Source: Leptospirillum ferrooxidans C2-3 (GTDB taxonomy: Bacteria > Nitrospirota > Leptospirillia > Leptospirillales > Leptospirillaceae). From it: 64,000 nucleotides of DNA. The stretch lies in assembly GCF_000284315.1 (NCBI RefSeq), contig NC_017094.1:2387486-2451485 (forward strand), in the 5' to 3' direction. The notes beneath the pieces are model-generated. The model was not told the origin of the DNA and did no database searches. It saw only the letters and a program-made list of their open reading frames with translations. The position numbers and the translations under genes were made by a program. Positions 43,575 to 46,809 of this stretch are shown in pieces (the stretch's first letter is position 1; every line of letters starts with the position of its first letter).

Positions 43575-44276
43575 TCAGGGGGTTTGATCGGAGGGGGTGT
43601 GGCGGGGATCTCTTCGTTCGGAAAATTTGACCGACCACCCGGGAACCTGATCGATCATGGCCGCCACCGGCTTCCGGAAAAAGCTTTCCACATCGAGGGG
43701 CTCCATTTTTTTCCCGATCTTTTCAATCTGGTCCCGAATGGTTCTCGGATGGCGATCCATCTCTTTTGCCACCAGGCCGACATCTCCCAACCTTCCAATC
43801 ATCTGAAGGATCTTCCACTGGTGGTCCGTAAGCATGTAGCGCGCTCTCTTGAAATGCTGGTAATACCCCAGAAAATCCTGGAATCCTCCGGGAAGGGGCA
43901 GCCAGGACTCCGGAGAAGAGCTTCCGGAAAAAGGAGGTGAATCCAGTATGAATTCGTATCGGGAGACAAATTCTTCTTTCGATACCACCTGATCCAGTAC
44001 AGGCAGAAAAGCAAGCCACTTCCGGATGGACAGTTTTTTGGATTCCTCCCCGACCAGAATGACGGGTGGAATCATCAGGTCACGCCATATCACATCGGGA
44101 GGATCGGGAAATCGTGAGTTCAGGATCATTCTGGCCGGTTTCAGAACTTCGAGATATGGCATGATTTCATTCCAGTTTTTGACAAACACCCACGACTCTG
44201 AAAAAGGCCGATTGGGAGGAAGCAGTCGCTCAAGAGAACGATCAAAAATCAGTGTGACTTTTGGCAAAAGAACCAT
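43575..44276 (-). CDS. DNA-binding regulator with receiver-like N-terminus
   Basis: A 233-residue protein. Residues about 5-115 have a receiver-like alternation of strands and helices without an obvious phospho-acceptor set. Residues about 148-195 contain a helix-turn-helix: LTDHQWKILQMIGRLGDVGLVAKEMDRHPRTIRDQIEKI. The family is uncertain; the layout resembles the Fis-type protein at 0.1-0.7 kb. It is divergent from the acyl-ACP desaturase across a 447-base AT-rich gap holding a palindrome, so it may control that gene. The ATG has no strong ribosome-binding site. Confidence 0.6.
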   Translation of the reverse strand: MVLLPKVTLIFDRSLERLLPPNRPFSESWVFVKNWNEIMPYLEVLKPARMILNSRFPDPPDVIWRDLMIPPVILVGEESKKLSIRKWLAFLPVLDQVVSKEEFVSRYEFILDSPPFSGSSSPESWLPLPGGFQDFLGYYQHFKRARYMLTDHQWKILQMIGRLGDVGLVAKEMDRHPRTIRDQIEKIGKKMEPLDVESFFRKPVAAMIDQVPGWSVKFSERRDPRHTPSDQTP

Positions 44277-44497
44277 CCGTTTCTATTTTTTGTTGAAAAG
44301 CTTCTTGTTGTTCCACTCTCCCCTATAAAGAAGAGCCCGGGGAAAATACACTTTTTTCATTCATTTTTCAAGAATAATTTCATTTTATATAAAATTGATA
44401 ATGAGTTAATTCAGTACACACTCAGACCTGCTGAAAAGAACATTCCAATCGATCTATCTCCAAAACACCCATCACAAAAGATAATCACCATGACAGA

Positions 44498-44513
44498 TGA
44501 AACATCCGTTTCG
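44498..44513. promoter_or_regulatory. palindromic site upstream of the desaturase
   Basis: TGAAAC-ATCC-GTTTCG, with a half-site GTTTCA at 44528-44533. The wider context ATGAAACATCCGTTTCGAA is identical at 17 of 19 positions to a site at 45753-45771 before the outer-membrane protein gene. A shared dimeric regulator is implied. Confidence 0.7.
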
Positions 44514-44614
44514 AAAACCTGAAAGATGTTTCATTCCTCACTCCAATCATAAATCCATAACTCATTTAAAAATATAAATTTTATTAGATAGCATGAAAAT
44601 TGCTATATCTTTTG

Positions 44615-44630
44615 TGGTTCGTTTTTTGTG
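44615..44630 (+). promoter_or_regulatory. weak sigma-54-like element
   Basis: TGGTTCG...TTGTG with GG at 44616-44617 and the -12 element at 44628-44629, 10 bases apart. TGG, CG and TTG match the consensus; the -12 GC is GT here. It is 102 bases after the palindrome and 94 before the desaturase start. Weak alone, supported by the parallel arrangement at 45.8 kb. Confidence 0.35.
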
Positions 44631-44723
44631 CCTTTTTAAGGGGAATCTCATGGGCGGTTGGCCATTTCGTACCAATCTGTTTGACCATGCGGGCCCCGAA
44701 ACCTTCTTCCATTGGAGTAACCT

Positions 44724-45593
44724 GTGAATCTGACCCTTGATGTCCACACACTGCGACCTTTGATCAGCGACTATAACCGCCTGGCGGACGATTCCGACTG
44801 GAATCGCTTCGGACTCCTGGAGAAACAGGAGATCGACTCGTCCCTTTTGACCCAGGGGCAGAAAGAGGCGGTCATCTTCGTCACCCATATCGAAAACCAC
44901 ACACCCACCTATATTTCGGACTATCTCTCCCGCTTTCCCATCGACGGCGGCCGGGAACTGAAACATTCGATCCACAACCGGGAGCTTTTTCATTTTATTA
45001 TCCGATGGGGGCTTGAAGAGGACCGTCATGCCGAAGCCCTTGCCCTTTACCAGTTGGCGGCAGACATCGCTCCAAGCACCGACAAGCTCTTGAACGACAT
45101 GATCGAAGAGTCGATAAAACCTTTCTCGATCGGATTTTCCGAACCAGTACAGGTCTTTACCTATACGTTTCTCCAGGAAAAGGCGACACAGCTTTATTAC
45201 CAGTGCCTTTCAAAAGCGGTCTCTGAACCGGTGCTGGCCCATCTCCTTCGGCAGCTGGCGAAAGATGAATCCCGTCATTTTGCGTTTTTCTCAAAGATTC
45301 TCGATGCCTATCTCGATGCCCATGGAGAACGGGCGATCGATCTGATCCTTGAGGTTTCTCTGTCTTACCGGATGCCTCTTCACAATACGCTTAAAGACTA
45401 TAGAAGACGGGCGATTCTCATGTCCCGGGAAGCTCCGGGATACCACCGGAAATTCCCGGTAGGCGTTCTTGCTGAGCATCTCGAGCACTCAGCGGAACGT
45501 CACCCTCAGCTTTCCGTGCCTCTCCACCGAGCCTCCGCCCGGATGCGTGCCGGGATGGAGAGCCCCTCCCCCATTGCCTCTTCCCTGAACTGA
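44724..45593 (+). CDS. acyl-ACP desaturase family protein
   Basis: A 289-residue soluble ferritin-like di-iron protein. The two iron-binding motifs are visible: WGLEEDRHAEAL (ExxRH type) and KDESRHFAFFSKIL, plus an upstream Glu in VTHIENHTPTYIS. This is the stearoyl-ACP desaturase/DesA family, which puts a cis double bond into acyl-ACP using O2 and ferredoxin. It would adjust membrane fluidity. It starts with GTG and has GGAG 6 bases upstream. Expression is probably controlled through the palindrome at 44498. A terminator follows the stop. Confidence 0.88.
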   Translation: MNLTLDVHTLRPLISDYNRLADDSDWNRFGLLEKQEIDSSLLTQGQKEAVIFVTHIENHTPTYISDYLSRFPIDGGRELKHSIHNRELFHFIIRWGLEEDRHAEALALYQLAADIAPSTDKLLNDMIEESIKPFSIGFSEPVQVFTYTFLQEKATQLYYQCLSKAVSEPVLAHLLRQLAKDESRHFAFFSKILDAYLDAHGERAIDLILEVSLSYRMPLHNTLKDYRRRAILMSREAPGYHRKFPVGVLAEHLEHSAERHPQLSVPLHRASARMRAGMESPSPIASSLN

Positions 45594-45620
45594 TCGTACC
45601 CGCCAATATATCCCTTCTTC

Positions 45621-45650
45621 CGGGGGCCAGTTCATCGGCCCCTGTCTTTT
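45621..45650 (+). terminator. intrinsic terminator after the desaturase
   Basis: Stem CGGGGGCC/GGCCCCTG with one G-T pair, loop AGTTCATC, followed by TCTTTT. It lies 28 bases after the stop. Confidence 0.8.
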
Positions 45651-45753
45651 ATTGATCCGGTGTTTTCTTTGATCTTCGATACGGCCCTTCTCCGTTTTCA
45701 GGTTTTTTCGTTTCCTGTACCTTGCCTCAATAAAAATATTTTAAATACATCTA

Positions 45754-45769
45754 TGAAACATGCGTTTCA
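45754..45769. promoter_or_regulatory. palindromic site upstream of the outer-membrane protein
   Basis: TGAAAC-ATGC-GTTTCA, a perfect 6-bp-arm palindrome, almost the same as the site at 44498-44513. It is 61 bases upstream of a sigma-54-like element, a usual distance for an enhancer-type binding site. Confidence 0.75.
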
Positions 45770-45830
45770 AAGGGAAGAGAAAAAAATCGCCCAAAAAAAT
45801 AAAAACATTATTTTATAAAGATTAAAAATC

Positions 45831-45846
45831 TGGCATTTGCTTTGCT
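45831..45846 (+). promoter_or_regulatory. sigma-54-type promoter
   Basis: TGGCATTTGCTTTGCT: TGGCA at -24 and TTGCT at -12, with GG and GC separated by 10 bases, as the sigma-54 consensus demands. It is 156 bases upstream of the outer-membrane protein start. Confidence 0.6.
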
Positions 45847-46002: not shown

Positions 46003-46809
46003 ATGTTCTCAGTACGAAAACAGTCCAAGGCCAGACTCGCAGTTCTTTCTCTTGCCCTTTTGTCCGCGACCGCTCTGTCTCCGGTGGCATCCGCCTGGGC
46101 TGTGGACGGTTCGGCTACCCCTGCCGCACCGGCATCGAACCCGACACCCATCAATGCCACGGCACAGGGCCAGATGATGAACATGCAGATGGCTGCCATG
46201 CAGAACGCCGCACAGAACACACCGATGGATTCGTCCTTTGACGGAAACGTTCCCAAATCCACAAGCCTGTCGGCAAACTTCGGATGGATGGATACCTTTG
46301 ACAACAGCCAATTCAACGGGGGCTACGGTGGCGGAGTCACGGCAACCCACTGGATTACACCGCATTTTGGCCTGACCGCTTCCATCGAAATTGAGTCTTT
46401 CGGATTAAACCCAATAAATAATTATATGGCTAATGCAGGGAAGGGTGCATACAATCAGGCAGGAACCCCAGTAATCCCAATCACACTTGGCGGAGTCTAC
46501 GACTTCACTGCCGGAAGATCTTGGGTCAATCCCCAGATCTTCGGCGATGCTGGTCCTGCCATTACCCTAGATGGTGAATCCATGCCACTCTATGCTGACT
46601 TGGGAGTAGGTGTGGTCACCCCCCTTGCCAAGATCTCAGATACATTGGCCGGAATTGACATTTTTGCGAACATTCGGATGGCTTACCTAAGCAATATGGG
46701 AGGGTTGGCAGGTACAGCAACTGATGCTTTAGGGGTTCCGAACAATGGTACCGCCGGAAGCGCCATGTTCTACATGCCCGTAGAATTCGGCGCCACATTC
46801 GTATTCTAA
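46003..46809 (+). CDS. predicted beta-barrel outer-membrane protein
   Basis: A 268-residue exported protein with a clear signal peptide (about 1-34, ending AWA), a Met/Gln/Ala-rich stretch (AQGQMMNMQMAAMQNAAQN), and then alternating strand-like segments that end in FGATFVF, a terminal aromatic typical of outer-membrane barrels. Family not identified. AAGGAGG is 7 bases before the ATG. The middle (about 46400-46750) is more AT-rich than the start and may encode surface loops. Expression appears to be controlled by the palindrome and sigma-54-like element upstream. Confidence 0.75.
   Translation: MFSVRKQSKARLAVLSLALLSATALSPVASAWAVDGSATPAAPASNPTPINATAQGQMMNMQMAAMQNAAQNTPMDSSFDGNVPKSTSLSANFGWMDTFDNSQFNGGYGGGVTATHWITPHFGLTASIEIESFGLNPINNYMANAGKGAYNQAGTPVIPITLGGVYDFTAGRSWVNPQIFGDAGPAITLDGESMPLYADLGVGVVTPLAKISDTLAGIDIFANIRMAYLSNMGGLAGTATDALGVPNNGTAGSAMFYMPVEFGATFVF

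Follow-up and report, generated by a model that had tools for sequence, protein, structure and literature searches.

A probable sigma-54 regulon of an acyl-ACP desaturase paralog, an OmpW-like barrel and a small membrane peptide in Leptospirillum

Introduction

Regulons of the NtrC, NorR and PspF type are built from -24/-12 promoters, upstream sites 60–150 bp away, and an AAA+ activator with GAFTGA and a Fis-type helix-turn-helix (HTH), with a site cluster adjoining the activator gene. The system described here shares these features, but differs in what it would control (one of two acyl-ACP desaturase paralogs, a barrel of OmpW-like fold and a very small membrane peptide), in its TGAAAC array and in the putative N-terminal Cys4 PAS-like sensor of its candidate activator. 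In Pseudomonas, the TetR-family protein DesT provides transcriptional control of the aerobic desaturase by membrane state; the present desaturase also appears to be under transcriptional control, here by sigma-54-dependent activation.

Sigma-54 has been presented as a controller of the bacterial exterior (Francke et al. 2011, PMC3162934), and envelope components seem to be governed by it here as well. The main text of that paper covers neither Leptospirillum nor a desaturase, whereas what is proposed here is a regulon whose site, promoter and candidate activator are all specified. An rpoN insertion of P. aeruginosa arose in a fabA screen, and its authors considered any effect probably indirect (PMC3462791). 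The kind of system, sigma-54 with an enhancer-binding protein, is ordinary, but we found the regulon itself undescribed: the open-licence papers searched yielded no description of a desaturase/outer-membrane protein (OMP) sigma-54 regulon.

We propose that the desaturase, the OmpW-like barrel and a 43-aa peptide probably form a sigma-54 regulon under the activator encoded at C1:210198-211598, acting through TGAAAC half-sites. With its site, promoters, activator and three targets specified, this regulon can be tested, and it bears on how bioleaching members of the Leptospirillum family adapt their membranes.

Genomes and scoring

The window is the whole stretch of 64,000 nucleotides that was analysed (C1:2387486-2451485) from a source genome consisting of a single contig of 2,559,538 bases; positions without a contig name refer to the window. 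The genome set comprises the source genome (G000), its congeners (G001-G002), members of the same family (G003-G020) and other families of the same phylum (G021 onward). Many of the relatives are draft assemblies and several are metagenome-derived; genome counts ignore kinship, so that the events counted in these related genomes are not independent. Sigma-54 elements were scored with a matrix hand-built from the consensus. The source genome was scanned for the regulon by pattern searches, and several of the joint-pattern matches fell in coding sequence or unrelated repeats.

A repeated element upstream of the desaturase and OMP genes

An earlier note on this DNA had reported a 19-base palindrome in two copies with 17 of 19 bases identical, one before the desaturase gene and one before the OMP gene. 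Both positions and the identity are confirmed: ATGAAACATCCGTTTCGAA lies at 44497-44515 and ATGAAACATGCGTTTCAAA at 45753-45771. The note had noticed no further copies, and an exact search of the 2.56-Mb genome with ATGAAACATNCGTTTCNAA likewise returns these two matches only, one ahead of the desaturase and one ahead of the OMP (rough chance expectation for 17 fixed bases, <0.001). The predicted sites are as follows.

44498..44513, no strand: palindrome TGAAACATCCGTTTCG, predicted activator-binding, upstream of the desaturase; kept in both congeners and in another genus
44528..44533, no strand: further half-site, GTTTCA, which three genomes of the genus have conserved
45754..45769, no strand: perfect palindrome TGAAACATGCGTTTCA, predicted activator-binding, upstream of the OMP; conserved in G002

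The perfect copy before the OMP reads TGAAAC-ATGC-GTTTCA. With at most one mismatch allowed, the genome contains TGAAAC-N4-GTTTCA 11 times, whereas the reversed control gives 3; the nine near-palindromes outside the window lie mostly within ORFs, and a sigma-54-like element was found near 0 of the 9. A third copy of the core, at 192702, lies within thiL and was rejected as chance; a copy on contig C267 of G003, within an apparent hemE coding sequence (judged from its translation), was rejected as well.

Across 30 upstream regions, which were partly picked for promoter presence, GAAAC/GTTTC is found 109 times, where shuffled sequence gives 9.8. TGAAAC is present in 27 of the 30, with a half-site consensus of approximately YATGAAACAT. 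The half-sites upstream of the G004 OMP gene are not palindromic (TGAAACCACATGAAACCTATGAAAC). The palindrome of the earlier note is real and conserved in relatives, but TGAAAC half-sites describe the motif better, and the conserved GTTTCA at 44528-44533 had been overlooked. The predicted functional unit is the TGAAAC half-site, arranged in inverted, direct or mixed arrays 60–150 bp upstream of the promoter. We could not match the TGAAAC array to any described site.

The outer-membrane protein and its promoter

Two features of the window concern the OMP.

45831..45846, + strand: predicted -24/-12 sigma-54 promoter TGGCATTTGCTTTGCT of the OMP, with -24/-12 spacing and a strong element at OMP orthologs in 10/10 genomes
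46003..46809, + strand: predicted 8-stranded outer-membrane beta-barrel with an OmpW/NspA-like fold and a C-terminal Phe, assigned from a structural model, Foldseek and the C-terminus

The promoter, already proposed by the earlier note, has the -24/-12 spacing; it is very strong and is the sole strong sigma-54 site within the window. It lies 59 bases past the palindrome, not 61 as first given. When 350 bases upstream of the OMP orthologs were scanned, all ten genomes showed a sigma-54 score of at least 20, compared with a dinucleotide-shuffle expectation of 0.07. In nine of the ten, at least one half-site stands in the activator interval; the G007 promoter has no perfect TGAAAC half-site there. 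A further contig (L275) shows the same pairing of half-sites and promoter.

Throughout the source genome, TGGCAYN6TGCW matches 25 sites, TGGCATTTGCTTTGCT among them, against 2 for the reversed control, and these probably represent a compact set of strong sigma-54 promoters that are largely real. A half-site pair about 70 bases upstream occurs at the OMP site only. By eye, from the translations, one of the 25 sites precedes an apparent nifH and another an apparent lpxC.

The model of the OMP (pLDDT 68.5) has eight strands and a fold resembling OmpW, NspA and OmpX, with OmpW as the best Foldseek match (E=3.2e-5). At the sequence level, Pfam gives no match at E<0.1, and the protein does not match the OmpW profile. 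Its C-terminus, EFGATFVF, is conserved; a terminal Phe is typical of outer-membrane barrels. Near the OMP gene of G004 (contig C33, L193:1864-2560), a GTTTCA/TGAAAC cluster and TGGCATATTGCTTGCT precede the gene of a 169-aa, apparently secreted protein, which is a possible further regulon member in this one genome.

The desaturase, its promoter and its paralog

The desaturase and its promoter occupy the following positions.

44589..44604, + strand: likely sigma-54 promoter (-24/-12) for the desaturase, TAGCATGAAAATTGCT; three genomes of the genus keep it as TAGCAYGRAAATTGCT
44724..45593, + strand: acyl-ACP desaturase-family di-iron protein, 289 aa, sigma-54-linked paralog (PF03405, DesA2 match and paralog tree)

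The match to PF03405 in Pfam (E=6.7e-15, 55 bits) places the protein in the family, with desaturase activity as a prediction. Its translation contains two [DE]ExRH di-iron motifs, EEDRH and DESRH, and its nearest PDB match is the acyl-ACP desaturase DesA2 (E=2.5e-7).

Alignment of the desaturase intergenic region from the three congeners reveals four conserved blocks: the palindrome, the GTTTCA shortly past it, TAGCAYGRAAATTGCT at 44589-44604, and a block adjoining the divergent gene. The likely promoter TAGCATGAAAATTGCT lies 73 bases past the palindrome and reads TAGCA rather than TGGCA in the genus, a non-consensus A replacing the first G of the -24 GG. The earlier note had placed a weaker sigma-54 element at 44615-44630 (TGGTTCGTTTTTTGTG). 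We rejected this as the desaturase promoter: its GC is missing and the two congeners do not conserve it, and the conserved candidate is the element at 44589-44604. For the desaturase promoters of G004, G011 and G012, the interval expected to carry the half-sites contains no perfect TGAAAC.

Two desaturase paralogs occur in the relatives, and the maximum-likelihood tree can be cut into halves of 13 and 13 sequences. A sigma-54 element (score at least 19.5) is found for 12/13 in the half with the window desaturase, as opposed to 0/13 in the other half, which contains the second desaturase of the source genome and acts as a built-in negative control. This second gene (C1:1107670) has no element upstream, and the uncontrolled group is supported in the tree at 88/87. 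The paralogs likely stem from a single duplication, which is not proven because the root of the desaturase tree is not fixed. These data suggest that, after duplication, one copy alone is inducible. In NaCl-adapted L. ferriphilum, a desaturase gene, paralog unspecified, is reportedly 4.9-fold up (PMC9053815).

Short motifs do recur, as the core copies inside thiL of the source genome and the apparent hemE of G003 illustrate. We nevertheless give almost no credence to the motif and promoter matches being coincidences or neutral relics, a reading already contradicted by the conserved alignment blocks, by the 10/10 OMP promoters where 0.07 are expected, and by the paralog specificity. The scan of relatives that the earlier note had suggested as a check recovers motif and promoters upstream of both desaturase and OMP orthologs, in support of its proposal that a shared regulator site couples the two genes.

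The divergent gene as an improbable binder

As a candidate binder, the earlier note had named the product of the gene divergent to the desaturase.

43575..44276, - strand: divergent putative regulator, 233 aa, judged an unlikely binder

The palindrome would then be the operator of this protein, which would repress or activate the desaturase and the OMP. The divergent orientation, a C-terminus that looks HTH-like on reading, and conservation of the gene in three genomes of the genus are all compatible with such a role. However, Pfam and NCBIfam give no recognised domain and no AAA+ domain, and among all loci compared its relatives occur only in these three genomes, yet OMP and desaturase genes elsewhere still have TGAAAC arrays. 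In another genus, the pairing of motif and desaturase is retained with a sigma-54 activator in place of the divergent gene. We therefore rejected the gene as binder, being genus-restricted and not tracking the motif, and consider its role as operator-binding protein very improbable. Since it is seen only in this genus, the 233-aa product is probably not the binder, although it may regulate something.

A candidate activator outside the window

The earlier note had also remarked that a distant activator may be needed, and a candidate is indeed encoded outside the window, beside a small membrane ORF.

C1:210198-211598, - strand: candidate sigma-54 activator (enhancer-binding protein), outside the window, with a half-site cluster at its 3' end
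L112:3830-3961 (G000:C1, about 209.8 kb), - strand: 43-aa membrane ORF (MNKQASVGAAPMVLFAFITVFPVLLFVIFEKFQAPLIGGIGTF), downstream of the activator, with conserved relatives

The protein matches PF00158 (Sigma54_activat, AAA+; E=5.7e-59) and PF02954 (HTH_8, Fis-type HTH; E=3.6e-10), and has a Walker A motif and GAFTGA at residue 218. The source genome also encodes rpoN (PF04552, E=1.5e-62, at C1:1499324). Scores against the NCBIfam activator equivalogs are all far below cut-off. Four invariant cysteines, C-x8-C-x3-C-x(about 17-20)-C, mark the N-terminal domain. Pfam returns no PAS match for this N-terminus; a low-confidence model of the domain (pLDDT 70.6) weakly matches PAS folds (PpsR, E=6.6e-5), including haem- and redox-sensing ones, and a phylum-level relative has a clear PAS match by profile. 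Among the activator relatives compared, fourteen activators fall in one supported clade (96/94), with long branches flagged.

A dense run of GAAAC/GTTTC surrounds and extends just past the stop codon of the activator gene, and is followed by GGGCATACCGCTTGCT and then by the 43-codon membrane ORF, which has no match in Pfam or NCBIfam. The same order of half-sites, -24/-12 element and membrane ORF of 37-45 aa is found at the activator tail of G000, G001, G002, G004, G005, G006, G010, G011 and G012; in G004 the membrane peptide stands at the C33 copy. Tail half-sites are absent in G003, G007 and G008, so the self-linked site is not universal. In G006, which belongs to another genus, the palindrome sits between a sigma-54 activator gene and the ortholog of the desaturase (69% identity); CGGCATCCTCCTTGCT lies some 110 bases downstream from the palindrome. 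The sites, their conservation, the promoter strengths, the activator domains, the association of half-sites with the activator gene and the paralog specificity can all be read directly from the sequences.

Because the source genome encodes about 14 related activators, the protein at C1:210198-211598 is assigned by association. The same regulon might be driven by another of these enhancer-binding proteins, which would then have the 210-kb activator gene as one more target, marked by the adjoining half-sites. Besides the number of related activators, this reading draws on a loose phylum-level group in which a similar Cys-PAS activator adjoins a zinc-ribbon gene that has a sigma-54 promoter of its own, which makes cross-regulation possible. 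We regard it as unlikely: the half-sites abut the stop codon of the 210-kb activator across genera, in G006 the activator travels with the desaturase and its palindrome, and half-sites are absent from the tail of the closest paralog in the source genome (1233 kb). The protein at C1:210198-211598 is thus the best candidate for binding the TGAAAC sites, judging by genomic association.

Proposed mechanism

In our model, TGAAAC half-sites make up the repeated element, which serves as an upstream activating sequence and would be bound by the enhancer-binding protein encoded at C1:210198-211598. This protein carries the putative N-terminal Cys4 PAS-like sensor, an AAA+ domain with GAFTGA and a Fis-type HTH. 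When the signal is present, the activator would assemble on half-sites 60–150 bp upstream and allow RNA polymerase-sigma-54 to form the open complex. Three targets are predicted in the source genome: the desaturase through its promoter at 44589-44604, the OmpW-like barrel through the one at 45831-45846, and the 43-aa membrane peptide encoded next to the activator. The window desaturase would be the inducible paralog; since the second desaturase lacks the elements, lipid unsaturation and the composition of the outer membrane would shift jointly under this circuit. We infer binding, activation, sigma-54 dependence in vivo, co-induction and the existence of a signal from sequence.

A redox, iron or oxygen signal is plausible given the Cys4 PAS-like domain, which is not in itself evidence of any of them. 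Tentatively, and with considerable doubt, one could imagine that the activator senses iron-sulphur, redox or oxygen status and that the TGAAAC arrays switch on an oxygen- and iron-dependent desaturase, the barrel and the membrane peptide. Such a regulon would link envelope remodelling to redox state in an extreme iron oxidiser, and it would be related to a broader group of Nitrospirota activators tied to an Fe-S carrier operon.

Related loci

At G000:C1:699925-700500 (locus L256), a 65-aa zinc-ribbon protein is followed by an A-type Fe-S carrier (PF01521). A strong sigma-54 promoter stands before these genes in 12/12 family genomes for which there is upstream sequence, and ahead of it lies a palindrome that is related to the present one but distinct from it (about TGTTYC-N4-GRRACA). 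In G022, G026 and G028, which belong to other families of the phylum, the zinc-ribbon gene lies directly 3' of a Cys-PAS sigma-54 activator. Upstream of the zinc-ribbon/Fe-S-carrier genes of G021, a member of a different family, there are five TGAAAC/GTTTCA half-sites (L259:2609-2693, contig C31), which suggests that the half-site is older than the Leptospirillum family.
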